Assembly (NCBI RefSeq): GCF_026151205.1
Contig: NC_087074.1
Span: 6,200,001 to 6,264,000 of the forward strand
Direction of reading: 5' to 3'
DNA: 64,000 nucleotides
Source: Bolinopsis microptera
Taxonomy: Eukaryota; Ctenophora; Tentaculata; Lobata; Bolinopsidae
Part shown: positions 1,177 through 63,702 of the stretch, piece after piece
How positions within the stretch are numbered: the stretch's first letter is position 1
Layout of the letters: each line of letters opens with the position of its first letter
Notes under the pieces: model-generated
What the model was told of the DNA's origin: nothing
What the model saw: only the letters and a program-made list of their open reading frames with translations
Database searches by the model: none
Translations under genes and position numbers: made by a program

Positions 1177-1866
1177 CTATTTATTCAGATAAAGTTTGAG
1201 AATCTTATCGACAATATTTGTGTTTTCGTTCATTAGTTTGTTTACATCAGATAGACTTGTAGTGGTGATAACTGCATCCAATAGAGATCGTTCTTCCAAG
1301 CTTAAAATATCTGTTAGGTCTTTTCCGCTGTCAATTAAACGCTGCTTCAAGACAACAAACAATTCGGTTTTCATCATGTATGAGAATAAAATGTCAAAAC
1401 ATTTATTTTGCTCTTTACACAATTTACTTTGTAACAGGACGTCTAGAGATTTAAGTAAACTCGATATCTTTTTACTGTTTGGTTGTTTGATTGGTACTCC
1501 TTTCCGCTTGCCTACGTGTTGCCAGTCAGTATCAGATTCTAACTCTTTAGCACTATATTCTTTGTTGGACTCATCATCGCTACTTGTTACACCACTAAAT
1601 TCATCATCACCACTACCTGGTACATCAGAGTTAGAACCACCTTGCTGAGATTCTTCAGAAACTATTGTATCAGCATCTGAATATACAGAATCCGGACCCT
1701 CCATTTTGACATCAGTCACATCTGAGTTAGCTTTTGACAGCGGCTGTAGAATTGCAGAACTTTCATCTGACTCTCGGTTCTCTCGATGATACCTACTAAT
1801 GTGTGAGGACAGACTATATTTATTGGCAAAAGACTTGTCACAGAATGAGCAGGTTACAGAATTCAT
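1177..1866 (-). CDS. C2H2 zinc-finger protein encoded by the palindrome, left copy
   Basis: Intact 229-residue ORF. Residues 6-27 form one C2H2 finger (CSFC, 12 residues, HISRYH). Next comes an acidic, serine-rich stretch (about 30-110) with a VKME sumoylation-like motif near residue 54. A basic patch (KRKGVPIK, about 120) and a leucine-rich, probably helical C-terminus follow. It reads outward from the palindrome centre. It differs from the right-arm copy at one residue (glycine here, cysteine there, in the SQQ-GSN context). A single N-terminal finger with an acidic middle suggests a nuclear DNA-binding or regulatory protein. No transposase motif is recognisable. AATAAA overlaps the end of the ORF. 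Expression is unproven, but intactness in both arms suggests a recent or maintained gene. Confidence 0.6.
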   Translation of the reverse strand: MNSVTCSFCDKSFANKYSLSSHISRYHRENRESDESSAILQPLSKANSDVTDVKMEGPDSVYSDADTIVSEESQQGGSNSDVPGSGDDEFSGVTSSDDESNKEYSAKELESDTDWQHVGKRKGVPIKQPNSKKISSLLKSLDVLLQSKLCKEQNKCFDILFSYMMKTELFVVLKQRLIDSGKDLTDILSLEERSLLDAVITTTSLSDVNKLMNENTNIVDKILKLYLNK

Positions 1867-1906
1867 AACTGCAGTACAAACGTTTTATAATGCTATGCAA
1901 CAACCA

Positions 1907-3500: not shown

Positions 3501-3605
3501 AGCGATCCATCTGGAGAAGTAGGCTAGGCGGGATTTGAACCCGCATTGTCCTGCATAGGAAAGTTGCCGTTAACTCACTAACCTGAGGCTCCAGATGGAC
3601 CGCTG
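3501..3605 (-). repeat. tRNA-like element with a long acceptor-type stem
   Basis: On the minus strand the ends pair almost perfectly over about 16 bp (AGCGGTCCATCTGGAG against its complement). GGTTCAAATCC is a near-perfect B-box in a GCGGG/CCCGC T-like stem. The D and anticodon arms are not canonical, so this is a tRNA-derived module in the palindrome spacer and not a decoding tRNA. Confidence 0.45.
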
Positions 3606-3854: not shown

Positions 3855-5088
3855 TAGCTATGGGGAGAGCATCTGAATTTTCCAAGAATCTATTCATGTG
3901 GAGTGTGGCACACCACAACAAAGGTGCATTCTTCCTAGATCAAGAGAACCGTGAGGAGTATGATATGAGGTGATGTTGTATTGAGTTACATTGTCGGGGG
4001 GTCAATTATCGGGGGGTCAATTGTCGGGGGGGGGACAATTTTCACCTACCCAATGGATTATATATGTGATCGAATGATATTACATGCGATTATATGCGAT
4101 TATATGCTATTATATGCTATTATATGCTATAATATGCTATTATATGCTATTATATGCGATTATATGCTATTATATGCTATTATATGCTTTGAGAAAAGGT
4201 CTAAAAAGGTACGTTTTGTGACAACAGAAATCCAAGGTGATGTTTCACAACTACCAAATTGCAGGAAAAATCACCTGATACCTAAACCTGGCCAGTTGCA
4301 TGCACCAGTAATCGACCGGGATTCCCGGTACTGGGAATCCCGGTACCGGGATTGACAATTTTGAGCTATTCCCGGTCCCGGTCCCGGTCAAATGCTGGTT
4401 TCTGTGCATTAAAATCGACAAGAGTATTAGCAGTTATCATTTGAAAGCAGAAATCAATGGTGCGCTGACTACTGGTTATGAATGATAATCCAGAAAGTGA
4501 TAGATCTCGAAGATGATCTCCGTCTGGCTAGTTGACGTAGAATTCACCATGATCTCCTTGTCCTGTCTGGTGTGGTTCTTTAATGTCCCCACTAGGAAGT
4601 ATTCCTACATGTTGGGTGCAGTCTTTGGTAGACTCAAGAGTTACAGTTTCATCTCCAGGATGATGCTTGGCAATCAGCATGAAAATAAATCTTTGAAAAG
4701 ATCTTTAATATGTTGAATGTATAAGTTGGATTATATTCTCCCTGCTACTATATGCGATTATTTGCAATTATATGCAATTATTTGCGAGTATAAATAATAA
4801 AATGTGATTTTAAGAGATAATATACGTGATTATATATGATTAGATGCGATTATATGCTATTATTATATGCTATTATATGCGATTATATGCGATTATATGC
4901 TATTATATGCTATTTTATGCAATTATTTTGCAATTATATGCGATTATTTGCAATTTTATGCTATTATTTGCAATTACATGCTAATATATGCGATTATATG
5001 CGATTATTTTGCGATTATTTGCGATTTTATGCGATTATTGCTATATAATGGTTGTTGCATAGCATTATAAAACGTTTGTACTGCAGTT

Positions 5089-5778
5089 ATGAATTCTGTA
5101 ACCTGCTCATTCTGTGACAAGTCTTTTGCCAATAAATATAGTCTGTCCTCACACATTAGTAGGTATCATCGAGAGAACCGAGAGTCAGATGAAAGTTCTG
5201 CAATTCTACAGCCGCTGTCAAAAGCTAACTCAGATGTGACTGATGTCAAAATGGAGGGTCCGGATTCTGTATATTCAGATGCTGATACAATAGTTTCTGA
5301 AGAATCTCAGCAATGTGGTTCTAACTCTGATGTACCAGGTAGTGGTGATGATGAATTTAGTGGTGTAACAAGTAGCGATGATGAGTCCAACAAAGAATAT
5401 AGTGCTAAAGAGTTAGAATCTGATACTGACTGGCAACACGTAGGCAAGCGGAAAGGAGTACCAATCAAACAACCAAACAGTAAAAAGATATCGAGTTTAC
5501 TTAAATCTCTAGACGTCCTGTTACAAAGTAAATTGTGTAAAGAGCAAAATAAATGTTTTGACATTTTATTCTCATACATGATGAAAACCGAATTGTTTGT
5601 TGTCTTGAAGCAGCGTTTAATTGACAGCGGAAAAGACCTAACAGATATTTTAAGTTTGGAAGAACGATCTCTATTGGATGCAGTTATCACCACTACAAGT
5701 CTATCTGATGTAAACAAACTAATGAACGAAAACACAAATATTGTCGATAAGATTCTCAAACTTTATCTGAATAAATAG
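5089..5778 (+). CDS. C2H2 zinc-finger protein encoded by the palindrome, right copy
   Basis: Mirror copy of the left-arm ORF: 229 residues with the finger at residues 6-27, an acidic serine-rich middle and a leucine-rich C-terminus ending KLYLNK. The single difference is cysteine instead of glycine in the SQQ-GSN segment. The two copies are transcribed divergently away from the palindrome centre. The upstream region is the TATGCGATTA repeat tract, so any promoter must lie in or beyond this simple repeat. Near-identity of the arms points to recent formation or gene conversion. Function unknown beyond probable DNA binding. Confidence 0.6.
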   Translation: MNSVTCSFCDKSFANKYSLSSHISRYHRENRESDESSAILQPLSKANSDVTDVKMEGPDSVYSDADTIVSEESQQCGSNSDVPGSGDDEFSGVTSSDDESNKEYSAKELESDTDWQHVGKRKGVPIKQPNSKKISSLLKSLDVLLQSKLCKEQNKCFDILFSYMMKTELFVVLKQRLIDSGKDLTDILSLEERSLLDAVITTTSLSDVNKLMNENTNIVDKILKLYLNK

Positions 5779-7639: not shown

Positions 7640-8513
7640 CTGATATATTGTCTAATATAACGTGTACGACGAACGTGTCTAATATAACGTGTACAACGTA
7701 CGTGTCTAATATAACGTGTATGTGTCATTGGTCTCATTGACCTACTTCATAGCTACGAAGGCGAGGCGGATCTAACTTTATACTGACTCCATTATTGTCT
7801 CTGTGAACAGACCGACAAACGGTATACTTGTTAAATAGGGCAACTATTTGATAACAAGAACGGCCTCACAAGTTAAAAATGAGGGACAATGATGGGCGAA
7901 TAACGAAGGGCCTGCATAATATTGTTACACAATGGAACAAACTAACAATGAGGAATGTCGGAATAAGCATCTTCGTCAAGACACCACTCCTGAAAATAGT
8001 TCCTTTAAATAAGAACAAAGTGTCACACCTCCATTGTTGTGTTTTTTGTAAAGATATCATTTGTAAAGACACATTGTTGAGACCCTTGTTATAAGTTTAA
8101 AGCTTGCCCCGAAGAGCCATATTCATTCTGTAGACATGGGTTTTATTGTACTTGGACTTCAGTTCCTTTGATGCAGTAAAATATCGGCTCCATCGCGCGG
8201 TGATAAGATTTTTTGGGTTCTGTTTAGGAGTTTACAACTTATATTACAACATCAATGTTTATCCTCAAGTTACCCTTTAGATTATCATAAATTCACATTT
8301 GAGATATTACCATCTTGTACTGTCACCAAACTACAGAATTCAACTCATTATCCAGCTAGCCACAATATTTTGAAAAGTCCGTCTTATCTCGGGATTTATT
8401 GGCCGGACGTAATTTTCAATTCCCCATTCCATATTTTTTTAAGTAATCCTTACCTCTAAATTCGTCATAGTCACGGATATTCGCGTTGGGAACCCCCTTA
8501 GTTAAGATTTAAG
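7640..8513. repeat. Upstream flank of the DD3-3-like gene with a 28-bp triplication
   Basis: TGTCTAATATAACGTGTA is repeated three times at about 7648-7722. No other gene is supported up to the start codon at 8514; the rest presumably holds the promoter and 5' UTR, but no clear TATA box was identified. Confidence 0.5.
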
Positions 8514-11500
8514 ATGCGGATATTTGTCGTGACAATAATTCTCGCGTTGAGTAGTCTCGTCGTTACTGATGTTTACATGCAGAACCCTCGAGGATCCAAT
8601 AACCGGTGAGTAACACTGTTTTACAGAAACATAGTATGTCTTTAATTCATAGTTTATAGTTAATAATAGTTAATTCTTTAATTCATCAGCATGTGTTATC
8701 CGCAACAGTTATCAGCCAGTGACACCACAAATAATCATTTGGCTGATGATACAAAGTATAGATATATATCCTCATTTAATGAACTTCTAAACTGAAGATA
8801 GTTTCACTTTTCCCGATGGAATATCATAATAGTATATCAAAATGGAAACTGCAGTGTCCTTAGACTTTTGTATCGTCTAGTTTTAAAATTTAAAAACATG
8901 TCCCCACCAGGTTGAACGAGAAGACATCAAACAGGGAGAATGCCAACAGGCTGTTCGACTCACAGAACAACAACAAGGGCGGTTACAACACTGGAGATAG
9001 ACTGGCCAGTAAGGCTGGAGATAATCCACAGAGGATTTATAACATGGTGAGTAAGCTAGACTACAGAGGATTTATAACACGGTGAGTAAGCTAGACTACA
9101 GAGGATTTATCACATGGTGAGTAAGCTAGACTACAGAGGATTTATAACATGGTGAGTAAGCTAGACTACAGAGGATTTATAACACGGTGAGTAAGCTAGA
9201 CTACAGAGGGTTTATCACATGGTGAGTAAGCTAGACTACAGAGGATTTATAACATGGTGAGTAAGCTAGACTACAGAGGATTTATAACATGGTGAGTAAG
9301 CTAGACTACAGAGGATTTATCACATGGTGAGTAAGCTAGACTACAGAGGATTTATCACATGGTGAGTAAGCTAGACTACAGAGGATTTATAACATGGTGA
9401 GTAAGCTAGACTACAGAGGATTTATAACATGGTGAGTAAGCTAGACTACAGAGGATTTATAACATGGTGAGTAAGCTAGACTACAGAGGATTTATCACAT
9501 GGTGAGTAAGCTAGACTACAGAGGATTTATCACATGGTGAGTAAGCTAGACTACAGAGGATTTATAACATGGTGAGTAAGCTAGACTACAGAGGATTTAT
9601 AACATGGTGAGTAAGCTAGACTACAGAGGATTTATAACATGGTGAGTAAGCTAGACTACAGAGGATTTATAACATGGTGAGTAAGCTAGACTACAGAGGA
9701 TTTATAACATGGTGAGTAAGCTAGACTACAGAGGATTTATAACATGGTGAGTAAGCTAGACTACAGAGGATTTATAACATGGTGAGTAAGCTAGACTACA
9801 GAGGATTTATAACATGGTGAGTAAGCTAGACTACAGAGGATTTATAACATGGTGAGTAAGCTAGACTACAGAGGATTTATAACATGGTGAGTAAGCTAGA
9901 CTACAGAGGATTTATAACATGGTGAGTAAGCTAGACTACAGAGGATTTATAACATGGTGAGTAAGCTAGACTACAGAGGATTTATAACATGGTGAGTAAG
10001 CTAGACTACAGAGGATTTATAACATGGTGAGTAAGCTAGACTACAGAGGATTTATAACATGGTGAGTAAGCTAGACTATAGAGGATTTATAACATGGTGA
10101 GTAAGCTAGACTTCAGAGGATTTATAACATGGTGAGTAAGCTAGACTACAGAGGATTTATAACACGGTGAGTAAGCTAGACTACAGAGGATTTATAACAT
10201 GGTGAGTAAGCTAGACTACAGAGGATTTATAACATGGTGAGTAAGCTAGACTATAGAGGATTTATAACATGGTGAGTAAGCTAGACTATAGAGGATTTAT
10301 AACACGGTGAGTAAGCTAGACTATAGAGGATTTATAACATGGTGAGTAAGCTAGACTACAGAGGATTTATAACATGGTGAGTAAGCTAGACTACAGAGGA
10401 TTTATAACACGGTGAGTAAGCTAGACTACAGAGGATTTATAACATGGTGAGTAAGCTAGACCATGGTGAGTTAAGCATTTCCTTTGGTCGGATTTATGGA
10501 AATATTTGAAAACTAAATGATATCCCGACCATTAGGCTGAGTCAACCAAGGAGATTTAAAATAGATGTGTAATACTCTAATAGTGTAGAGACGGAGTCAT
10601 TAGCTCACTTCCTTGACTGAGTTACACTTATATTTTAACCCCGTACTCTCTGCAATATGGTCATATATCTGCAATATCCCAGCAATACTGGTCATATATC
10701 ACAATATCCCAGCAATACTGGTCATATATCACAATATCCCAGCAATTATACTGGTCATATATCACAATATCCCAGAAATACTACGCAAGTGGACCCACCA
10801 CTAAGGAAGGTACCAAACTTATGGTAGAATGGACAAATCAGCATGGTTGTGGGGAGGACCACTCCAAAATGAACTGCAACGTTGTGATACAGTACATGTG
10901 CCAGAGTAATGGTACTGATGAAGATTACCCTGTTAGTAATGGTAGTGACGAGGAGAAAGTTATAAAACGTATTTTCTACCTGCGGGACGGAACCAGCACT
11001 GATACACAGGTTAGTCCAGTATTGACTATTAAAACCAGCACGATAACAGGACGGTAACAGGCCCATATTAGTCCTATTTTAAAACCAGCACGATAACAGG
11101 ACGGTAACAGGCCCATATTGGCCCTATTTTAAAACCAGCACGATAACAGGACGGTAACAGGCCCACATTGGTCCTATTTTAAAACCAGCACGATAACAGG
11201 ACGGCAACAGGCCCATATTGGTCCTATTTGCAACCTCGATCAGGATTACCCGGGATCGTATTTAGGTTGAGACAGGGTCCGTGATTATTGGAGGTTTGGT
11301 TCGTCTTCATACCAAAGGATTTCGACGTTGTTGGTATTACTCAGTTTTACTATTTCATAATATCAAAACCGCAGAAATTCGACGATCCAAGGAAGAAGGA
11401 GTCGGATGATAAATACGATGCCCGAATGTTGAAAAACTACGTAACAAATTCTGATAAGACAGACGGCCTACATGAAACAGTTTATTGGTACGACCAATGC

Positions 11501-21320: not shown

Positions 21321-22255
21321 ACAAATATCTTTATGAAGGAGCAAGCTAGAAAAACTTTCCGGTAGATTTTCAGAATGCTTGAACAATTATCTAAGGTAAA
21401 AATTTCCTCAGATTTTGAATAAAATTACTCCTTAATGGTTTAAAATTAATTTTAAAAGTTATTACTTTGTCAAAAATCAAGTTTTAAAAACGGTCAACTT
21501 GATGACGTCATCAAGGGGTGTTTATGACGTCAAATAATTTTTTATACAATGTAAACTAAAGTGTAAACGATTATTTGCAAGACCTGTGGTCGGAAATGGC
21601 TGTATCTTTTATACTTTTGAATCTATGGACACTTAAATACAGGCTACAATTGACTGGCAAAGCGTCTATCCCTGAATATATATGTATGTATGTATATGTC
21701 CCGACAATCTGTCGTAAAACAGGGGTTCTAGAAAACCCATTTCCCGATGCTCCTGAAACCTGACATTTTTTTTGCAGTCGATTTGGTCAACGTCTAGACG
21801 CCCTGAAAAATTTCAGATCTCTAACTCAATTTTAACATGGTTTTTAAGGCACCTGAATATGGCGATTTTGGGTTTTTTACCGAATTTCGTATAACAGTGC
21901 TGGCGAGTATTTTATGCAAATTTCTTAAAAATCTCAACATAACTATTTTTTATTCCTGTCATCTTTGACATCAAATTAGAATGTTTTGAACTAAAAACAC
22001 TACCAAAGGGGGTATAATAGTAAAGGGGGTATAATAGTAAATGGGGAACATAGTATACCCACAATAAATGCAACGGTCGTGCTTGCCAGCACTGTGATAT
22101 TGCAAAAGATACTATTTCGATATTTATGACAAGCGTGCTAAATCACTTTACAGTCAATCTTCGAAATTGTTCTAAAAGGGGCCCTCGACAGTTGAATTTG
22201 AAACCAACTGCAATCGATGTATTTTCGGGCGCTGATTCCGAATCACCGGCCCCAT

Positions 22256-22488
22256 GACATTTGTATCACATCCACAGGAGGACTATAGTGCAGTGAGCAG
22301 CAGTGAGCAGCAGTGAGCAGCAGTGAGCAGCAGTGAGCAGTAGTGAGCAGCAGTGAGCAGCAGTGAGCAGCAGTGAGCAGCACTAGCAGTGAGCAGCAGT
22401 GAGCAGCAGTGAGCAGCAGTGAGCAGCAGTGAGCAGCAGTGAGCAGCAGTGAGCAGCAGTTTCTTAGCACTATAGTCCTCCTGTGCGT
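22256..22488. repeat. 10-bp CAGTGAGCAG array framed by an 18-bp inverted repeat
   Basis: About 16 copies of CAGTGAGCAG, interrupted once by CACTAG. The array is bounded by CACAGGAGGACTATAGTG on the left and its reverse complement on the right. Confidence 0.9.
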
Positions 22489-22491
22489 CGT

Positions 22492-22583
22492 GACCCCCAC
22501 GGTCGTTTCACTATGGTTCTTATCGTTTTTACGATACAGGGGGAGCCGCGCACTCGTGCGCGGCGGGTCATACAACGTATGAC
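22492..22583. repeat. Triple-hairpin cassette, copy 1
   Basis: Three consecutive perfect inverted repeats: TATCGT/ACGATA (22521-22536), GCCGCGCAC/GTGCGCGGC (22545-22564, 2-base loop) and GTCATAC/GTATGAC (22567-22583, loop AAC), preceded by GACCCCCACGGTCG. Confidence 0.85.
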
Positions 22584-22756
22584 AACATGACATAGGGTTA
22601 AAATGCTCCCCTGACGAGATGTTGGCGAAAAACTGTCTTGATCACGTGATATAACCGTATAAGGCCGGCCATGAAGTTAGTCTAATTTCTCTTTATGGTT
22701 AGGGTTTCAGCATATGCATTTGTTAACCGGATTGGGTTAGGATTGCATCACGTTGC

Positions 22757-22847
22757 GACCCCCACGGTCGTTTCACTATGTCCCCCTTTATCGTTCTGAC
22801 GATACAGGGGGAGCCGCGCGTGCGCGGCGGGTCATACAACGTATGAC
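22757..22847. repeat. Triple-hairpin cassette, copy 2
   Basis: Same order of three hairpins as the copy 265 bp upstream. The loop of the first and the length of the second stem have changed (GCCGCGC/GCGCGGC), with pairing kept: compensated variation that suggests structure matters. Confidence 0.85.
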
Positions 22848-23205
22848 AAGGTTAGGATTAGTATAGGGTTGGGATCAGATTAAAGGGTTAGGGTTTTGAA
22901 TAGTTGTTCAGGACCAGCAAGAGAACGGGTTGATAAAGTCACGAGACAATCGAGTGTAGAGTGATTGATCATCATCCGATTCATGAAGTTTGAAAGAAGT
23001 TACTACAATGCGCGCAATTTGGGGAATGTTCTTGGTTTAGTTTTTAGTTCTTTCGCAAAAGATATAACTATAAGCTGCGTTTATCACAGTGCTGGCAAGC
23101 ACGACCGTTGCATTTATTGTGGGTATACTATGTACCCCCTTTACTATCATACCCCCTTTACTATTATACCCCCTTTGGTACACGTTACAGTTACACGCCT
23201 CTTTC

Positions 23206-23262
23206 GTGCACGCGAAGCGTGCACTCCGGCCGGAGGCGGCGGCCGAAGGCCGCCGCCTCCGG
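23206..23262. repeat. Two adjacent GC-rich hairpins with GAA loops
   Basis: GTGCACGC-GAA-GCGTGCAC (23206-23224), then a 15-bp stem CCGGAGGCGGCGGCC-GAA-complement (23230-23262). Both are perfect, in AT-rich surroundings. Confidence 0.9.
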
Positions 23263-25139
23263 CAGAAGTTTTTCAGGCATTAAGACTCATCGGAAGTCGT
23301 TCAGCAGATTTATTTTTAGTTGAAAACATTCTAATTTGATGTCAAAGATGACAGGAATAAAAAATAGTTATGTTGAGATTTTTAAGAAATTTGCATAAAA
23401 TACTCGCCAGCACTGTTATACGAAATTCGGTAAAAAACCCAAAATCGCCATATTCAGGTGCCTTAAAAACCATGTTAAAATTGAGTTAAAGATCTGAAAT
23501 TTTTCAGGGCGTCTAGACGTTGCCCAAATCGACTGCAAAAAAAGTTTAAGGTTTCAGGAGCATCGGGAAATGGGTTTTCTAGAACCCCTGTTTTACGACA
23601 GATTGTCGTGATATATACATATTCAGGGATAGACGCTTTGACAGTCAAATGTAGTCAATTGTATCCTAAATTTAAGTGTCCATAGATTCAAAAGTATAAA
23701 AGATACAGCCATTTCCGACCACAGATCTTGAAAATAATTGTTTACACTTTAGTTTATATTGTATACAAAAATTATTTGACGTCATAAACACCCCTTGATG
23801 ACGTCATCAAGTTAACCGTTTTTAAAACTTGATTTTCGACAAAGTAATAACTTTTAAAATTGATTTTACACCATTTAAAAGTAATTTTTTTCAACATCTG
23901 AGGAAATTTTTACCTTAGATAATTGTATAGGCATTCTGAAAATCTACCGGAAAGTTTTCTTATCTTACTCCTTCATAAAGATATTTGCCTTTGAAGTTAG
24001 TGCTTTTTTGAAAAATTATTTTATAAAAACGTCAATTTTGCGATTTAGTATTCTCTAGTGTTGGGCTATCCCTTGGGTTGTGGAGCTCAGTTATGCTTTC
24101 TATAGGTATAAATTGTGCATTAGGCTAGTTTTAAAGTTGAAAATCGAAAAGTTGCACACGTGGGGACACGCCCAAATTGATTAAAAATTGCTAAAATCAC
24201 TGAAAATTGGTGTTTTCACGATTTTTATCAACTTTGGAGTCCCGCTGTGATCCAAGTTCTATTTGAAATCTTTTGAAACTTTGCACTCTTATCAAACTAT
24301 ATATAAAATACCGCTATGCAAAAATTTACGGCGATTCAGTATTGGATGCGCACGCAACAACCGCTCAAAGTTTGCACGTGCGAACGGTGAGAATTTTGCT
24401 CATTCGTGATTTCGAACAAATTCTGCTTTACCACGACAGTTCAATGTCATTATATATGAATTTAATGGCAACTTGAATGATTATAATGTTTTATGTTCAG
24501 TCAGTGATAGACCGATATGCTTACCTAAACACAAGGAAATGTTTTTAAAGGAAAAATTTCGAAATCGTTGAAACTTCCTCCTTATTAATGAAGACATCAG
24601 TTTATATTTCGACTTTATAAAATACCCTGACATTATAATCAAAAAGAGATGATATTTGACCAAAACCCATAATCATGGGTAGAGTGGACCGCTGCCAGTG
24701 TCTCTCTTTCCCAAACAAAAGGAAATGATATTAATTTGATTGACCGTTCTCAAATGCAAAATGATACCGAGAATGAAATCGGTCGCTCGCTTTTCCCATT
24801 AATTTACAATTGTAATAGATTAAGAAGAACTACCCGAAGGCAGCTGTACTCAGCAATAAAGAATCAATAAACTTCAGCTAATTCACTAACTACCAGTACC
24901 ACCCTTATCCCGAAATACTAGGTATATCGACCCGAACGCAACCCAAAGGAATTTTTACAACATGTGATTGATTGTAAGCCGTGAATGAATGGGAAAAGCG
25001 AGCGACCGATTTCATTCTCGGTATCATTTTGCATTTGAGAACGGTCAATCAAATTAATATCATTTCCTTTTGTTTGGGAAAGAGAGACACTGGCAGCGGT
25101 CCACTCTACCCATGATTATGGGTTTTGGTCAAATATCAT

Positions 25140-25718
25140 ATATCGATTCAGCTCAGCTCAGCAAACGATTAAATGATTTTGGACATGGAAAATGATCACG
25201 CTTGTTTTAGTCGATCTATAAGACATTCTGATTTAATTTTAATTTTGAAAAACACGGATTAATTATCATTATGTTAATGGCTCGGCAAGTTGGCATTATT
25301 TATTTGTAGATTTATAACCCACCATGCCAAAACGTGCAGTGCGACGAGTTGGACTCGCCGACGATCTTGGAACAAATATTTTACAAATATCTATATCATT
25401 ATCAGGCTGCAGTTAATTATTCACCAGGGGACCAAAGCTTTGTTTTCATCGGTAATATATGATATTCCTCTAAATTTCTTCAAAATATTCTGGCCTTGCG
25501 CCGCTTTCTTTTCGAAATGCTGCGACGCGATGTACTGTGCGTCACGTCAGTCCATTATATTTATAATTATAACATGAATGGACAAAATGTGTATTATAAT
25601 ACTATACTATTAAATTACTAATGAAGCTGCAAAAGATATGGTGCCGGTGAAATCTCAGGCTGAGCACGTCCCAGTAATTGGTACTAAACATTATGTTTAT
25701 ATCAGTTTTTTTAAAAAC
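25140..25718. other. No gene seen; dispersed-repeat fragment
   Basis: Holds the CTAAATTTCTTCAAAAT copy (about 25470) of the small dispersed family seen near 18810 and 55265. Nothing else is supported. Confidence 0.4.
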
Positions 25719-26273
25719 CTACATTGGCTGCTTTGATGAGTTGAGTTGACCAATAGGAGAAGAAAATCTTTGGAATCCCACTACAGGACACACACATGAA
25801 AAACAGCTACCAACTCGTTTCAGAAGCGTCTTTCCAATGTCAATGACAATCTTTTGTTTCTGTGGACGGACATTGACACTTTTACTTCGCCAGTCCGTAG
25901 AATCAGATCCTTTATTTTCAGAACCTTCTAGTTGGTCCATCGTAATGTACTGTTTGATTGATACAGATGGTACATCACGTAGAACTATTCCCTTATGTGT
26001 GACTATTGGGTATTTGTGTGTGGATGTGGTGTTACTTATCTCAAGGCCGGACTCTTTGAAAGTACCATGGCTACCGCGGTGCCGTTTCAGTTCTTCAGAG
26101 CTGACAAATAGTTGCCAGTATCCGATAAAATCCTCCTTTTTTTGGAGAGGTTTCCTTTCGGTGTGTTTCATCCCGACATTTGATCTACAAGGGGCATGTA
26201 ACATTATTGTGTCTAAAAACCATTTTTTTGCAAATACAACGAGTGCTAAATAAAGCCGATTACTTCTTTGCAA
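25719..26273 (-). CDS. Hypothetical 184-residue ORF
   Basis: Open from MQRSNRLYLALV to stop, with mixed composition and no repeat character. It includes RKPLQKKEDFIGYWQLF, EELKRHRGSHGTF and SVNVRPQKQKIVIDIGKTL. I recognise no family. It ends 41 bp from the edge of the piggyBac-type element, so it may be an exon of a host gene or part of an older transposon. The opposite strand has a shorter overlapping ORF that looks like a shadow. An exon reading is possible, but no splice partners were found. Confidence 0.3.
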   Translation of the reverse strand: MQRSNRLYLALVVFAKKWFLDTIMLHAPCRSNVGMKHTERKPLQKKEDFIGYWQLFVSSEELKRHRGSHGTFKESGLEISNTTSTHKYPIVTHKGIVLRDVPSVSIKQYITMDQLEGSENKGSDSTDWRSKSVNVRPQKQKIVIDIGKTLLKRVGSCFSCVCPVVGFQRFSSPIGQLNSSKQPM

Positions 26274-26454
26274 ATTATGCTACAGATGTTTACAACCGTA
26301 CCAATGTATTTAACCCATTAGGGACGACGAGTTTTAAAGTTTGCCGATTTTGATGCCGTTTAACACACTAGGTCACTTTACAGCAAAAATGAGATATCCA
26401 AAAAAGCTAATCTGTATCTCGTTTACTTTAAAAGATACAGCTATGGTCGCATAC

Positions 26455-26920
26455 GACCCACTCGTCCGGGTCGCAAACGACCCATCACGGTTTTTCGGCT
26501 TTAACTTCTGAAACAAAGACGTTAGGATAAAATAAAATAAAAAGCATAAGTTAAAAACATATGGTCAATACTGTGTGACTCTAACTTTTTTTAAATAAAG
26601 AATTTGGGTCATTAACGACCCACTCGGCTCACTTGCTTATTACTACATATGTCCATGTAACTTCTTGAATTCAGCCTAAAGCATGACATCATAAGTTCAA
26701 AATCGCCTCTCAGCAAGTGATAATCATCATAAACTGCGAAAAATCGGTTAAATGGGTCATTAGCGACCCACTAAGACCACAAAATTGATTAATTAAATAT
26801 AATGTAGTCAAAATTTTACAAATATTAGTATAAAAACATGTTATATCTTGGTCATTACTCCTGTACGTTGATTTAAATTTAAAAATCGATCAACTGGGTC
26901 AATAACGACCCACTCGGAAG
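26455..26920. repeat. Spaced GGGTC..GACCC palindromes, left series
   Basis: Palindromes of the type GGGTCATTAACGACCC, often followed by ACTCGG or ACTCGT, at about 26447, 26468, 26607, 26757 and 26898, roughly 130-150 bp apart after the first pair. The inverted series is at about 28197, 28342, 28490, 28625 and 28650. They may be transposase-binding sites. Confidence 0.7.
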
Positions 26921-27281
26921 TTGAACCACGACATCAATTATCAGTATCATGTTGTTCTACCATCAAGAAAGACACTCGTAGGTCTTAATTCCATGCAAAC
27001 CACGGGTGGCTGACTACTAGCCCTTCTGAGATCTGGAGTCTCACTGTAATCTGCAGATCACGTCACCCAATGACTGACGAATAATGGGCAGAATTGGATT
27101 GATAGGTAGGTGAGTTTATCACCTGTTAGTACACGACCGTAATGTCGTGAGACAGCAAACAACATGCCTATCTTTTCCCGATTCCTAGAACGTCCAAGAA
27201 GAACTATACAACTGCTGGATTCAGATTTCAGATGGCTGCATCTACTCTCATCGCAGCTCCCTTTCTTTACTTCTTAGGGGC

Positions 27282-29514: not shown

Positions 29515-32500
29515 CACCACACACCAGTTTCCGTCCTCCTAAAGCTAAGTGCATCACCAGTTCCCGTCCTCCTGAAGCTAAGTACGTCACCAGTTCCCGT
29601 CCTCCTGAAGCTAAGTACGTCACTAGTTCCCGTCCTCCTGAAGCTATAAAGTACGTCACCAGTTTCCGTCCTCCTGAAGCTAAGTACGTCACTAGTTCCC
29701 GTCCTCCTGAAGCTAAGTACGTCACTAGTTCCCGTCCTCCTGGAGCTAAGTACGTCACTAGTTCCCGTCCTCCTGAAGCTAAGTACGTCACCAGTTCCCG
29801 TCCTCCTGAAGCTAAGTACGTCACTAGTTCCCGTCCTCCTGGAGCTAAGTACGTCACTAGTTCCCGTCCTCCTGAAGCTAAGTACGTCACCAGTTCCCGT
29901 CCTCCTGAAGCTAAGTACGTCACTAGTTCCCGTCCTCCTGAAGCTAAGTACGTCACTAGTTCCCGTCCTCCTGGAGCTAAGTACGTCACTAGTTCCCGTC
30001 CTCCTAAAGCTAAGTACGTCACTAGTTCCCGTCCTCCTGGAGCTAAGTACGTCACTAGTTCCCGTCCTCCTGGAGCTAAGTACGTCACTAGTTCCCGTCC
30101 TCCTGAAGCTAAGTACGTCACCAGTTCCCGTCCTCCTGAAGCTAAGTACGTCACTAGTTCCCGTCCTCCTAAAGCTAAGTACGTCACTAGTTCCCGTCCT
30201 CCTGGAGCTAAGTACGTCACTAGTTCCCGTCCTCCTGGAGCTAAGTACGTCACCAGTTCCCGTCCTCCTGAAGCTAAGGACGTCACTAGTTCCCGTCCTC
30301 CTGAAGCTAAGTACGTCACCAGTTTCCGTCCTCCTGAAGCTAAGTACTTCACTAGTTCCCGTCCTCCTGGAGCTAAGTACGTCACTAGTTCCCGTCCTCC
30401 TGGAGCTAAGTACGTCACTAGTTCCCGTCCTCCTGAAGCTAAGTACGTCACCAGTTCCCGTCCTCCTGGAGCTAAGTACGTCACCAGTTCCCGTCCTCCT
30501 AAAGCTAAGTGCGTCACCAGTTCCCGTCCTCCTGAAGCTAAGGACGTCACTAGTTCCCGTCCTCCTGAAGCTAAGTACGTCACTAGTTCCCGTCCTCCTG
30601 AAGCTAAGTACGTCACCAGTTCCCGTCCTCCTGAAGCTAAGTACGTCACTAGTTCCCGTCCTCCTGAAGCTATAAAGTACGTCACCAGTTTCCGTCCTCC
30701 TGAAGCTAAGTACGTCACCAGTTTCCGTCCTCCTGAAGCTAAGTACGTCGCTAGTTCCCGTCCTCCTGGAGCTAAGTACGTCACTAGTTCCCGTCCTCCT
30801 AAAGCTAAGTGCGTCACTAGTTCCCGTCCTCCTGAGGCTACAAAGTACGTCACCAGTTCCCGTCCTCCTGGAGCTAAGTACGTCACTAGTTCCCGTCCTC
30901 CTGGAGCTAAGTACGTCACTAGTTCCCGTCCTCCTGAAGCTAAGTACGTCACTAGTTCCCGTCCTCCTGGAGCTAAGTACGTCACTAGTTCCCGTCCTCC
31001 TGAAGCTAAGTACGTCACCAGTTCCCCTCCTCCTGAAGCTAAGTACGTCACCAGTTTCCGTCCTCCTGAAGCTAAGTACGTCACTAGTTCCCGTCCTCCT
31101 GGAGCTAAGTACGTCACTAGTTCCCGTCCTCCTGGAGCTAAGTACGTCTCTAGTTCCCGTCCTCCTGGAGCTAAGTACGTCACCAGTTCCCGTCCTCCTA
31201 AAGCTAAGTACGTCTCTAGTTCCCGTCCTCCTGGAGCTAAGTACGTCTCTAGTTCCCGTCCTCCTGGAGCTAAGTACGTCACTAGTTCCCGTCCTCCTGG
31301 AGCTAAGTACGTCACTAGTTCCCGTCCTCCTGGAGCTAAGTACGTCTCTAGTTCCCGTCCTCCTGAAGCTAAGTACGTCACTAGTTCCCGTCCTCCTGGA
31401 GCTAAGTACGTCACTAGTTCCCGTCCTCCTGGAGCTAAGTACGTCTCTAGTTCCCGTCCTCCTGGAGCTAAGTACGTCACTAGTTCCCGTCCTCCTGAAG
31501 CTAAGTACGTCTCTAGTTCCCGTCCTCCTGGAGCTAAGTACGTCACTAGTTCCCGTCCTCCTGAAGCTAAGTACGTCACCAGTTCCCCTCCTCCTGAAGC
31601 TAAGTACGTCACCAGTTTCCGTCCTCCTGAAGCTAAGTACGTCACTAGTTCCCGTCCTCCTGGAGCTAAGTACGTCACTAGTTCCCGTCCTCCTGAAGCT
31701 AAGTACGTCACCAGTTCCCGTCCTCCTGGAGCTAAGTACGTCACTAGTTCCCGTCCTCCTGAAGCTAAGTACGTCACTAGTTCCCGTCCTCCTGGAGCTA
31801 AGTACGTCACCAGTTCCCGTCCTCCTGGAGCTAAGTACGTCACTAGTTCCCGTCCTCCTGGAGCTAAGTACGTCACTAGTTCCCGTCCTCCTGAAGCTAT
31901 AAAGTACGTCACCAGTTTCCGTCCTCCTGAAGCTAAGTACGTCACTAGTTCCCGTCCTCCTGGAGCTAAGTACGTCTCTAGTTCCCGTCCTCCTGGAGCT
32001 AAGTACGTCACTAGTTCCCGTCCTCCTGAAGCTATAAAGTACGTCACCAGTTTCCGTCCTCCTGAAGCTAAGTACGTCACCAGTTTCCGTCCTCCTGAAG
32101 CTAAGTACGTCACTAGTTCCCGTCCTCCTGGAGCTAAGTACGTCACTAGTTCCCGTCCTCCTGGAGCTAAGTACGTCACTAGTTCCCGTCCTCCTGGAGC
32201 TAAGTACGTCACTAGTTCCCGTCCTCCTAAAGCTAAGTACGTCACTAGTTCCCGTCCTCCTGGAGCTAAGTACGTCACCAGTTTCCGTCCTCCTGAAGCT
32301 AAGTACGTCACTAGTTCCCGTCCTCCTGGAGCTAAGTACGTCACCAGTTCCCGTCCTCCTGGAGCTAAGTACGTCACCAGTTCCCGTCCTCCTAAAGCTA
32401 AGTGCGTCACCAGTTCCCGTCCTCCTGAAGCTAAGTACGTCACTAGTTTCCGTCCTCCTGAAGCTAAGTACGTCACTAGTTCCCGTCCTCCTGGAGCTAA

Positions 32501-34685
32501 GTACGTCACTAGTTCCCGTCCTCCTGGAGCTAAGTACGTCACTAGTTCCCGTCCTCCTGGAGCTAAGTACGTCACTAGTTCCCGTCCTCCTGAAGCTAAG
32601 TACGTCACTAGTTCCCGTCCTCCTGGAGCTAAGTACGTCACTAGTTTCCGTCCTCCTGAAGCTAAGTACGTCACTAGTTCCCGTCCTCCTGGAGCTAAGT
32701 ACGTCACTAGTTCCCGTCCTCCTGGAGCTAAGTACGTCACTAGTTCCCGTCCTCCTGGAGCTAAGTACGTCACTAGTTCCCGTCCTCCTGGAGCTAAGTA
32801 CGTCACCAGTTCCCGTCCTCCTGGAGCTAAGTACGTCACCAGTTCCCGTCCTCCTAAAGCTAAGTGCGTCACCAGTTCCCGTCCTCCTGAAGCTAAGGAC
32901 GTCACTAGTTCCCGTCCTCCTGAAGCTAAGTACGTCACTAGTTCCCGTCCTCCTGAAGCTAAGTACGTCACCAGTTCCCGTCCTCCTGGAGCTAAGTACG
33001 TCACCAGTTCCCGTCCTCCTAAAGCTAAGTACGTCACCAGTTCCCGTCCTCCTGGAGCTAAGTGCGTCACCAGTTCCCCTCCTCCTGAAGCTAAGTACGT
33101 CACCAGTTCCCGTCCTCCTGGAGCTAAGTACGTCACCAGTTCCCGTCCTCCTAAAGCTAAGTGCGTCACCAGTTCCCGTCCTCCTGAAGCTAAGGACGTC
33201 ACTAGTTCCCGTCCTCCTGAAGCTAAGTACGTCACTAGTTCCCGTCCTCCTGAAGCTAAGTACGTCACCAGTTCCCGTCCTCCTGAAGCTAAGTACGTCA
33301 CTAGTTCCCGTCCTCCTGAAGCTATAAAGTACGTCACCAGTTTCCGTCCTCCTGAAGCTAAGTACGTCACCAGTTTCCGTCCTCCTGAAGCTAAGTACGT
33401 CACTAGTTCCCGTCCTCCTGGAGCTAAGTACGTCACTAGTTCCCGTCCTCCTAAAGCTAAGTGCGTCACTAGTTCCCGTCCTCCTGAGGCTACAAAGTAC
33501 GTCACCAGTTCCCGTCCTCCTGGAGCTAAGTACGTCACTAGTTCCCGTCCTCCTGGAGCTAAGTACGTCACTAGTTCCCGTCCTCCTGAAGCTAAGTACG
33601 TCACTAGTTCCCCTCCTCCTGAAGCTAAGTACGTCACTAGTTCCCCTCCTCCTGAAGCTAAGTACGTCACTAGTTCCCCTCCTCCTGAAGCTAAGTACGT
33701 CACTAGTTTCCGTCCTCCTGAAGCTAAGTACGTCACCAGTTTCCGTCCTCCTGAAGCTAAGTACGTCACTAGTTCCCGTCCTCCTGGAGCTAAGTACGTC
33801 ACTAGTTCCCGTCCTCCTAAAGCTAAGTGCGTCACTAGTTCCCGTCCTCCTGAGGCTACAAAGTACGTCACCAGTTCCCGTCCTCCTGGAGCTAAGTACG
33901 TCACTAGTTCCCGTCCTCCTGGAGCTAAGTACGTCACTAGTTCCCGTCCTCCTGGAGCTAAGTACGTCACTAGTTCCCGTCCTCCTGAAGCTAAGTACGT
34001 CACTAGTTCCCCTCCTCCTGAAGCTAAGTACGTCACTAGTTCCCGTCCTCCTGAAGCTAAGTACGTCACTAGTTCCCGTCCTCCTGAAGCTAAGTACGTC
34101 ACTAGTTCCCCTCCTCCTGAAGCTAAGTACGTCACTAGTTCCCGTCCTCCTGAAGCTAAGTACGTCACTAGTTCCCGTCCTCCTGAAGCTAAGTACGTCA
34201 CTAGTTCCCCTCCTCCTGAAGCTAAGTACGTCACTAGTTCCCGTCCTCCTGAAGCTAAGTACGTCACTAGTTCCCGTCCTCCTGAAGCTAAGTACGTCAC
34301 TAGTTCCCCTCCTCCTGAAGCTAAGTACGTCACTAGTTCCCCTCCTCCTGAAGCTAAGTACGTCACTAGTTCCCGTCCTCCTGAAGCTAAGTACGTCACT
34401 AGTTCCCCTCCTCCTGAAGCTAAGTACGTCACTAGTTCCCGTCCTCCTGAAGCTAAGTACGTCACTAGTTCCCGTCCTCCTGAAGCTAAGTACGTCACTA
34501 GTTCCCGTCCTCCTGGAGCTAAGTACGTCACTAGTTCCCGTCCTCCTGAGGCTAAGTACGTCACCAGTTCCCGTCCTCCTGAGGCTAAGTACGTCACCAG
34601 TTCCCCTCCTCCTGAAGCTATAAAGTACGTCACCAGTTCCCGTCCTCCTGAAGCTATAAATCACGTCACCAGTTCCCCTCCTCCT
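29515..34685. repeat. 5.2-kb minisatellite of 33-bp units
   Basis: About 155 copies of a 33-bp unit (plus strand: GTCCTCCTGAAGCTAAGTAC then GTCACTAGTTCCC). Variants sit at fixed positions: GAAG/GGAG/AAAG, TAC/TGC/GAC, CACTA/CACCA/CTCTA, TTCCC/TTTCC and CCGTCC/CCCCTCC. There are occasional 36-bp units with an extra ATA or ACA. Blocks of variants recur in the same order, so there is higher-order repetition. Because 33 is a multiple of three, several frames stay open for over 1700 codons. The substitutions mostly change amino acids in each frame, so I read this as non-coding. Confidence 0.95.
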
Positions 34686-35957
34686 CAACTAATGACTCCG
34701 ACTCTTTCCGCTCCATCAACTGTAACATTGACGTCACTATCATAAATGTCACTATGATTAACGTACGTCTAGCAACAGCTTCACGCTAACGACCTACACT
34801 ATGACGTCATCTTGCAAATAACCACAAGGCTCTTTTATAAGAAATGTGTCGTGGAAAGATGATAGTGATGGAATTAACTTTGATTGAGCGGCTGGATGGT
34901 TGATTTGTTACAATTCCAGATCATTAGTATTCTCATATAGTTCCACGTGTCACGTGGTCAACTTTGTAACACGTGGTTCCCGACTCCCACGTGTTTTTCA
35001 CGAGCTAACTACGTCCAAGCCTCGTATTATCATATTATATTATTCGAATTCTTATTCACAACGCATACCAAATCGGACGATTTAAGACTGTCCGATCGTT
35101 TCAGAGGCTGTAGTTTCATAGCAGTATCGGTTCTCTCAGATTATGAATATAAAGGTACAAAACCGCACATTCATCTGAAAAACGAGGAATTTGGTAGGGG
35201 TCCTGTTAGGTAGGGCGGCCATCTGCTGCCCCACTGGCCACCGGTCAGGTGACCACGTGGGGAGCACGGGACGGACACGTGCGTAACACGTGGTCAGTGC
35301 AATGTTACGAGCCGAGAACAGCAAACAAGAAGAGATGTACCTGGGACCCCTCATTCCCGGCTGTGTGTAGTACTGCATGTGTTCGCGAGATGTTAACCAC
35401 CAAGTCTGAGGTTCTCGCCCCCGAGAACTTTGCGGAGGATTGGAGTTGTAAAACAGAGTTGCTCACTGAGTTGGAACAGAACGAGACGACGGGGTCCGCC
35501 GCAGAGAAAGGTACGAGATGCTCGGTAGAATCTGTTTGTAGCCCGCAAATTTCACGCTGTGCACGGTTCACCACACTCTGGTGTGTATTCTGACAACGTG
35601 TTATTGTCCTGCATCTGGTCACGGATTTATTAGGTTCTCAATAAAACTAATAATATTCCGGACGTTCCTGTCTTTTCAATCGTACTCGTAGATTTCTGAT
35701 TTCGTTTCTTCTATTTTTTTCAAAAATTTATTTTCCTTACACCGATTCGGTATTCTGATTTTGAACTTTTTAAAGCTTTGATGAGTTTGCTATTAGCATA
35801 CATTGGTCGCTAGCGTATAATACATTTGAGCGTTTGTTAGACTTCCCTCGAATAAAGAACCAGCTGTTTACCGCTGTGAGGTCTTTTCTATAATTTTTAT
35901 TTTTCAATCTTAATATAATACATGTCGTCGTTGTCTTTCGCTTGAGTAGCATTTGTA
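34686..35957. promoter_or_regulatory. Non-coding stretch with seven CACGTG E-boxes
   Basis: CACGTG at 34944, 34951, 34970, 34988, 35254, 35276 and 35287. CACGTG is the core for Myc/USF/MITF-type factors. ORFs of about 100 codons overlap on both strands at 35136-35622, but neither has clear coding character. This may be a CpG-richer promoter-like region; the gene it would serve is unclear. Confidence 0.35.
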
Positions 35958-36383
35958 CAGCCACAGCCGCAACCACAGCCGCAACCGCAACCGCAGCCAC
36001 AGCCACAGCCACAGCCACAGCCACAGCCACAGCCACAGCCACAGCCACAGCCACAGCCACAGCCACAGCCACAGCCACAGCCACAGCCACAGCCACAGCC
36101 ACAGCCACAGCCACAGCCACAGCCACAGCCACAGCCACAGCCACAGCCACAGCCACAGCCACAGCCACAGCCACAGCCACAGCCACAGCCACAGCCACAG
36201 CCACAGCCACAGCCACAGCCACAGCCACAGCCACAGCCACAGCCACAGCCACAGCCACAGCCACAGCCACAGCCACAGCCACAGCCACAGCCACAGCCAC
36301 AGCCACAGCCACAGCCACAGCCACAGCCACAGCCACAGCCACAGCCACAGCCACAGCCACAGCCACAGCCACAGCCACAGCCA
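35958..36383. repeat. (CCACAG)n microsatellite
   Basis: About 70 units of CCACAG, the first few degenerate (CCGCAA). All frames are open; the poly-(AT), poly-(SH) and poly-(LW) ORFs are artefacts. Confidence 0.97.
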
Positions 36384-62612: not shown

Positions 62613-63702
62613 ATGGCAATAAGATTATTCAGAAGGCGGAGAAGATTACTTAAAAATTTGGGAATCTTTGGAATTATTTTAGTGATCGTAGCTGTTTACA
62701 AAACAACAGTAAGTGTTCTGCAGTAATCTCTACAGTCTCCGAAACTTTTCCTTATTCCTTATTCCTTATTCCTTATTCCTTATTCCTTATTCCTTATTCC
62801 TTATTCCTTATTCCTTATTCCTTATTCCTTATTCCTTATTCCTTATTCCTTATTCCTTATTCCTTATTCCTTATTCCTTATTCCTTATTCCTTATTCCTT
62901 ATTCCTTATTCCTTATTCCTTATTCCTTATTCCTTATTCCTTATTCCTTATTCCTTATTCCTTATTCCTTATTCCTTATTCCTTATTCCTCATTCCTTAT
63001 TCCTTATTCCTTATTCCTTATTTCTTATTCCTTATTCCTTATTCCTTATTCCTTACTCTCATCTTTAAAGAATTATTTGTTAATTCTGCTTATTAATATT
63101 GTGAATTAGTTATAAAAAGAAGCATGACTAAACAAGTACTTTGACAATTTGACATTTCATAAGTGAACTAAAGATAGCGATTGTGTTTTTTAGTGCAATT
63201 ATTGGCTGTAATTCGGGATAAAATAACTAGTGAGTAGTGACCGGCTATGATATAAATCTGCAGCATAATATTGATTACCATTCAATCTAATTTCAGAAGG
63301 ATAAGTCGTTAATTCAGAAAAGGAACACACTAAATCATAATCAAGATGCCAACTTATCTGAAGAAGTAATTAAGAGAAGAGTAGAGAGCGTTAAAAGAAG
63401 ATGTTCCCCTAGCAAGGATATACATCATAATGGTGCAGATTTGCAGGTTAATTAAAAGTCATTATAAATAATATTATTCAAGTTATAAAACCTGATCCGC
63501 CCTTCATCTATTCATTTAACATGTCAATAATGATATGCAGTTGTTGGGGCATATACTCTAGATGAGATGTAAATAAACTTTATTTTTATACAATAAGTCG
63601 ATAAAAAGTGTTGCCAAGAAATAGATGTGGACTGATCTTCTCCTTCCACATTTCAGGTTTCAGATTTAGTTGAAAGCCTGGAATTCAAGCTTGAGGAAAA
63701 TG
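62613..63702 (+). CDS. 5' part of a gene for a type II membrane protein
   Basis: Exons 62613-62708, 63297-63446 and 63657-63702 (phases 0, 0, 1), continuing past the window. Exon 1 encodes MAIRLFRRRRRLLKNL, an arginine-rich cytosolic tail, then a hydrophobic anchor GIFGIILVIVAVY. Exon 2 is a charged stretch (KDKSLIQKRNTLNHN, EEVIKRRVESVKRRC). Exon 3 starts VSDLVESLEFKLEEN. A short basic tail, one anchor and a charged, possibly coiled stem is the layout of Golgi glycosyltransferases, but no catalytic domain is in view, so the function is inference only. The first intron contains a heptamer microsatellite. A broken copy of exon 1 lies at 55177-55425. Confidence 0.65.
62747..63056 (+). repeat. 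(TTCCTTA)n heptamer microsatellite
   Basis: About 44 copies of TTCCTTA with rare variants, in the first intron of the type II membrane gene. Confidence 0.96.

Follow-up and report, generated by a model that had tools for sequence, protein, structure and literature searches.

A splice donor repeated 41 times: a minisatellite over an exon-intron boundary in a DD3-3-like gene of a ctenophore

In the ctenophore Bolinopsis microptera, the 5' splice site of intron 2 of a DD3-3-like gene is the first of 41 copies in a 35-bp minisatellite that starts inside the coding sequence of exon 2. This minisatellite belongs to the 'mirages', which lie over an exon-intron boundary and are known from lancelets; it is found here in what seems to be a new phylum. 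The explanation favored here, with a probability of roughly 0.68, is that a minisatellite of this type has grown by ordinary repeat turnover, and that the spliceosome mostly uses the outermost donor, at 9047, the others being decoys. The window, which means the whole 64,000-nucleotide stretch that was analysed, contains the following features of this gene.

8514..8605, plus strand: exon 1 of the DD3-3-like gene, from the ATG (gene model; donor CG/GTGAGTAAC at 8606).
8911..9046, plus strand: exon 2, ending ...NPQRIYNM, its last 19 bases lying in array unit 1 (gene model).
9028..10461, plus strand: donor-spanning minisatellite, 35 bp x 41, with donors at 9047 + 35k, k = 0..40 (TRF, motif count).
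9047..10775, plus strand: intron 2 in phase 0, with 1729 nt when spliced from the first donor (gene model; predicted splicing).
10466..10475, plus strand: GTGAGTTAAG, donor of the truncated last unit (motif count, U1 pairing).
10652..10782, plus strand: repeat of ~30 bp across the intron 2 acceptor (TRF, 30 x 4.3 or 63 x 2.1).
10776..11009, plus strand: exon 3, starting KYYASGP (gene model).
11029..11229, plus strand: 50-bp x 4.0 array inside intron 3, spanning no junction (TRF).

The donor array is a real, well-bounded feature. TRF gives it a period of 35, 41.0 copies, 98% matches and 0% indels, and the motif GTGAGTAAG occurs 41 times on the plus strand of the 64-kb window, always within the array, with 41/41 units intact and a spacing of 35 between neighbouring donors in 40/40 cases. 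These counts bear out the initial annotation, which had described a donor amplified about 41 times in one intron. It had also placed an authentic donor at 9047, followed by about 40 equally good donors at a 35-base period; that series holds, and a weaker 42nd donor is now added at 10466, in the truncated unit that follows the 41-unit array, where it probably represents the inner end of the original exon-intron junction. The 35-bp unit does copy the end of exon 2 together with the donor, with an exonic share of 19 positions (ACAGAGGATTTATAACATG) instead of the 15 bases proposed, and 16 intronic positions. Six of the 35 columns of the unit are variable and none of the donor nonamer columns is affected; because six variable columns would miss all nine donor positions by chance with P=0.14, the invariance of the nonamer is no evidence of selection, and it was rejected as a signal of it. 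A 70-nt array query produced at least 21 matches in the 264.65-Mb assembly, a lower bound because very common words were skipped in the search, and all matches listed fall in the window array. Searches with mitochondrial COX1 and with GFP found nothing, and the array-rich, non-random sample of sequence examined has 41.3% GC versus a published 38.5% for the species.

Repeats are also found elsewhere in the window. A 33-bp x 156 array of 5.2 kb occupies 29522-34692, ACAGCC is repeated 71 times at 35957-36383, and TTCCTTA 44 times at 62748-63055. Two near-identical open frames of 235 aa, at 1177-1884 (minus strand) and 5071-5778 (plus strand), are inverted relative to each other and flanked by inverted arrays of ~10-bp repeats; together they form a large palindromic element whose arms enclose a tRNA-like match at 3520-3584 (minus strand).

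The other end of intron 2 is repeated as well, which the initial annotation had missed. The acceptor repeat carries CCCAG at 10678, 10708, 10738 and 10771, of which the last is the real one, ending at 10775, and it includes 7 exonic nt of exon 3. Under a stricter test (at most 2 mismatches in 16 nt), two further acceptor copies are present in the intron.

The window gene is presumably a DD3-3 homologue; a Pfam search with the first 204 residues of the protein returned no family. Exons 2-4, searched against the gene's own assembly, identified one intronless copy on C5 and two intron-bearing paralogs on C9, here named C9a (locus L018) and C9b (locus L017). The C5 copy (L019, C5:11727000-11733000) is a 683-aa intronless open frame with 44% identity to the window gene over 164 residues, and is probably an old retrocopy. 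The three intron-bearing genes were modelled by spliced alignment to this 683-aa reading frame; open frames in the models are partly so by construction, because the aligner penalises stops, and three 'introns' of 6, 15 and 21 nt were removed before counting. Some introns with weak donors may be misplaced, and the C9a model begins at residue 24. The remaining 12 introns of the window gene measure 99-365 nt, with 9/12 under 200 nt.

The consequences of donor choice were predicted by a script that took the 42 donors one by one and joined them to exon 3. Exons 1-4 are free of stops when donor 9047 is used, and this donor alone keeps the protein. All 41 downstream donors introduce a premature stop, at codon 89 in 40 cases and at codon 105 in one, even when the number of added nucleotides is divisible by three; the earlier suggestion that most choices would break the frame was too weak. 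Neither donor strength nor folding distinguishes the first donor from the other units, and both were rejected as reasons why it should be preferred. With the 5' end of U1 taken from the U1 loci of the same genome, the predicted duplex has -10.8 kcal/mol in the common unit, -11.0 in the C-2 variant and -9.2 at the 10466 donor, and in a simple fold the mean unpaired value of the first donor is 0.32 versus 0.29-0.39 for donors 2-8. Since the first donor is neither stronger nor more open, sequence alone cannot say why it would win. Another property of the array is that 40/40 internal units have CTAC, CTAT or CTTC plus AG ahead of AGG, and each could therefore supply an in-frame, stop-free microexon of 15 nt, encoding RIYNM (29 units), RIYNT (5), RIYHM (5) or RVYHM (1).

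It had been suggested that arrays starting with a unit that overlaps a donor might be present in other genes, and such arrays do occur in the same genome, both at the paralogs and in kinesin genes. In the three DD3-3 genes, each of the 43 modelled introns that reach 60 nt or more was searched for an additional intronic copy of its junctions, with at most 2 mismatches in 16 nt; 6/43 donors and 2/43 acceptors are copied in this way, as listed here with the number of further copies.

Window intron 2: donor with 40, acceptor with 2.
C9b intron 2 donor: 1 (45 bp x 2.1; position homologous to the window array, unit different).
C9b intron 11 donor: 2 (25 bp x 2.8).
C9a intron 1 donor: 103 (16 bp x 109.9).
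C9a intron 9 donor: 2 (21 bp x 3.3).
C9a intron 15 donor: 8 (34 bp x 11.9).
C9a intron 4 acceptor: 58 (53 bp x 60.1, with 45-46 nt of the unit from exon 4).

The largest of these arrays are in C9a (C9:16435000-16444000, minus strand). At c9rc 21787-23551, 110 GT...AG units of 16 bp start at ...ACTCTCAG/GTACTG and fill most of intron 1, an intron absent from the window gene and from C9b. It splits RLFDSQ^NNNRGGYN, a stretch that is unbroken in the other two genes; gain in C9a is the simpler reading than loss in both others, and would make this intron a candidate for recent gain. At c9rc 24078-27261, a 53-bp x 60 array combines 8 intronic nt (ACCCGCAG) with the first 45 nt of exon 4. The 32-bp x 44.3 array of C9a intron 11 overlaps its exon by just 4 nt and failed the junction-copy test. 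Two further arrays were seen at L025/L017: a 30 bp x 37 array at c9rc 8229-9347 that ends 7 nt short of the acceptor, and an 8 bp x 109 array (GTAACACT) at c9rc 4688-5620 that nearly fills its intron from just inside the donor.

The same copy test was positive at 4/680 exon-interior and 2078/3352 intron-interior positions, and by the latter count repeats are far commoner in intron interiors than at junctions. A crude model with uniform placement, which sets each TRF array randomly over its intron using unit length and the intron length before expansion, predicts 4.3 junction overlaps among the 22 intronic arrays of the three DD3-3 genes versus 9 observed (P=0.011), and 4.1 among 20 versus 7 observed when window intron 2 is left out (P=0.08). 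Short introns and active minisatellites would explain much of this overlap, and an excess beyond it is suggested. Whether donor motifs are generally enriched in repeat units was considered as well, and the enrichment was rejected as slight. Among 176 repeat units from 288 kb of non-randomly chosen sequence, DD3-3 loci included, motifs scoring at least 9 were found in 5, versus 2.8+-1.5 in shuffled and 2.6+-1.5 in genomic sequence, and the largest gap, at a score of at least 5, was 50 versus 36.4+-5.1 genomic; the excess stays within ~2 SD of shuffled at every threshold tried and reaches at most 2.7 of genomic at the lowest.

Kinesin genes provided an unrelated sample. A search of the assembly gave 109 matches, on ten of contigs 1 to 13, and by eye ten gaps were picked in which neighbouring matches lie more than 900 nt apart, with six further gaps above 900 nt (one of which, L065, was read separately) and one of 765 nt left out of the count. 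Because just 361 bp were read at each gap end, array copy numbers are lower bounds, and junctions were scored as lacking arrays from TRF and visual inspection alone. Arrays span 3/10 donor ends and 2/10 acceptor ends, in five different gaps (5/10), one of them marginally.

Donor after SSRSHA: 38 bp x 2.
Donor after INTSLSEL: ~33 bp, with 8 additional copies in the stretch read.
Donor after NTAKPLVDWVFQ: 35 bp, 8 further copies.
Acceptor before GNSMTLMIACCSP: 21-23 bp, 13 further copies.
Acceptor before VHELLLKANKN: 26 bp, 11 further copies (three exonic bases shared, marginal).

Junction-spanning arrays beside the exons ...SSRSHA, ...INTSLSEL and GNSMTLMIACCSP... lie in kinesin genes on C2, C12 and C13 (L063, L057/L058, L053, L055/L056). 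Among the ten, the gap C12:14430588-14434913 probably hides an exon, because profile positions 118-177 are skipped there. A five-intron kinesin gene (L044) has no junction array, TRF detecting only short AT-rich repeats at 1135-1182 that are intronic by eye. The long kinesin intron of L065 (C13:5068640-5069810), compared with its short counterpart in the near-identical copy L066, was rejected as a mirage, since it contains a palindromic insertion of ~950 bp with inverted runs of 11-bp repeats that is absent from L066. Outside the kinesin sample, L037 (30 bp x 69) and L042 (31 bp x 31; 54 bp x 11.3) have the look of junction arrays and were not counted; they may be coding repeats, because 30 and 54 are multiples of three and long open frames are present. 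L028 (43 bp x 22) was left uncounted, its exon being unproven. In Pfam, the L037 peptide has three weak matches below the cut-off, and the L042 and L028 peptides have none.

The initial annotation had the anatomy right and overlooked, besides the acceptor repeat, the potential for microexons and the fact that such arrays are of a known kind. The unit joins exonic and intronic sequence across the junction (19 + 16 positions, 41 units), it is of minisatellite size and repeated head to tail (35 bp, 41.0 copies, 0% indels), and both 5' and 3' boundaries are represented (the acceptor repeat at 10652-10782 and the 53-bp x 60 acceptor array of C9a). PMC3087553 and PMC3902484 describe amphioxus mirages in Adh3, in the globins BflGb6 and BflGb9, and also in PGBD5 and TnC, with units ranging from 10-72 bp (Adh3) to 150-160 bp (BflGb6) at 5' or 3' boundaries, and propose them as a source of new introns; there, data on Adh3 and globin RT-PCR are taken to suggest that mirages leave regular splicing undisturbed (PMC3087553; likewise PMC3902484). 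A tandem unit bridges the exon-intron boundary in both animals. The present arrays differ in their ctenophore host, in their copy numbers (41, ~60 and ~110 versus the 6 and 3 units given for the two BflGb6 haplotypes), in that both ends of one intron are repeated, and in that the splicing outcome is here a prediction only. A literature search on ctenophores and minisatellites found no report of ctenophore mirages within the library and wording searched.

A second precedent, and the nearest case of repeated donors, is human IFI6 (6-16), with a 12-bp minisatellite unit in ~26 copies at the end of exon 2. According to PMC4526556, citing Turri 1995, units of that minisatellite act as splice donors, and two downstream units are used to give three mRNA species. 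The window array resembles it in that minisatellite units carry donors, and differs in unit length and sequence and in that every downstream donor is predicted to lead to a stop, whereas IFI6 uses two of its downstream units. In human segmental duplications, variable internal tandem repeats with minisatellite units of ~30 bp at exon-intron boundaries alter splicing and can create introns (PMC2812944); those repeats have ~4 units on average and are partly coding, whereas the window array is long and inside an existing intron. The Rogers model, in which introns are gained through tandem duplication of AG/GT proto-splice sites (as outlined in PMC3087553), fits the GT...AG units that follow ACTCTCAG in C9a intron 1; it does not cover the window array, whose intron position is common to C9b.

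On the favored explanation, 35 bp across the 3' end of exon 2 and the beginning of intron 2 would have been duplicated in tandem and then expanded to 41 units. Such a duplication would often touch a junction because the other 12 introns are so short, and it would be tolerated since the exon remains complete in the outer copy, with the original intron still behind it; the resulting state does seem tolerated, given similar arrays at paralogous and unrelated genes. The first donor, 9047, would mostly be chosen, being recognised jointly with the acceptor of exon 2 at 8910, and transcripts using any of the other 41 would hit a stop and be removed by nonsense-mediated decay. By analogy, the IFI6 case may be held against this use of the outermost donor, and several donors might instead be used appreciably, the array acting as a length-dependent brake that tunes the amount of productive mRNA. 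The equal strength of the units and the unproductive nature of all 41 alternatives are consistent with a brake, as are the two downstream units and three mRNA species of IFI6 (PMC4526556). However, lancelet mirages are reported in PMC3087553 and PMC3902484 not to disturb splicing, there is no sign of special donor preservation in the window array (P=0.14), and in C9a intron 9 the inner donors have diverged from the first (GTAAGT versus GTAAAT, GTTAGT and GTAAAA), which together make a brake unlikely. Intron definition could also pick the innermost donor, at 10447 or 10466, leaving ~1.4 kb of repeat in the mRNA and the gene largely silenced. An intron from 10466 to 10775 would have 310 nt, inside the range of the other introns, and would be favored if short-intron pairing rules, as the 9/12 introns under 200 nt might imply; its product nevertheless stops at codon 89, and the gene model keeps open frames (partly by construction), so that this choice is very improbable.

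If the AG before AGG served as an acceptor, one or more pentapeptides would be added in frame at the joint between exons 2 and 3. All 40 internal units offer a 15-nt stop-free insert, but the acceptor is without a pyrimidine tract (GCTAGACTACAG), and units would have to be skipped because neighbouring donor and acceptor are just 20 nt apart; microexon use is accordingly judged highly improbable. Long tandem arrays are error-prone in assembly, and this one could be collapsed, stretched or misplaced. The scattered variants among its units and the like arrays with different unit lengths at other loci argue against that, as do the PacBio libraries in the study taken as the source of the assembly (PMC10232365), and an artefact is hardly credible; Iso-Seq served the Bolinopsis annotation in the same study. 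As for how the array arose, tandem duplication may have started preferentially at splice junctions, as through a process coupled to transcription or splicing, instead of falling there at random. The excess of junction overlaps (P=0.011), the repetition of both donor and acceptor of one intron, and the arrays in 5/10 long kinesin gaps point towards seeding. Against it, the excess weakens to P=0.08 under the same crude uniform-placement model once window intron 2 is set aside, donor motifs are just slightly enriched in repeat units, and the kinesin gaps were chosen for their length; seeding is therefore a doubtful possibility.

Repeats that cross splice junctions may, tentatively and with the odds against it, be a widespread means by which introns lengthen and new ones arise in this ctenophore genome, with the ends and starts of exons present in tens to a hundred copies, with splicing following an 'outermost site' rule and with C9a intron 1, in its ~110 GT...AG units of 16 bp, representing an intron soon after its birth. 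The arrays are natural constructs, with 41 to ~110 near-identical competing splice sites at fixed spacing, that would permit a direct test of the choice between equal donors. If they recur genome-wide outside the lancelets, the turnover of junction minisatellites would offer a general way for introns to grow and to be gained.
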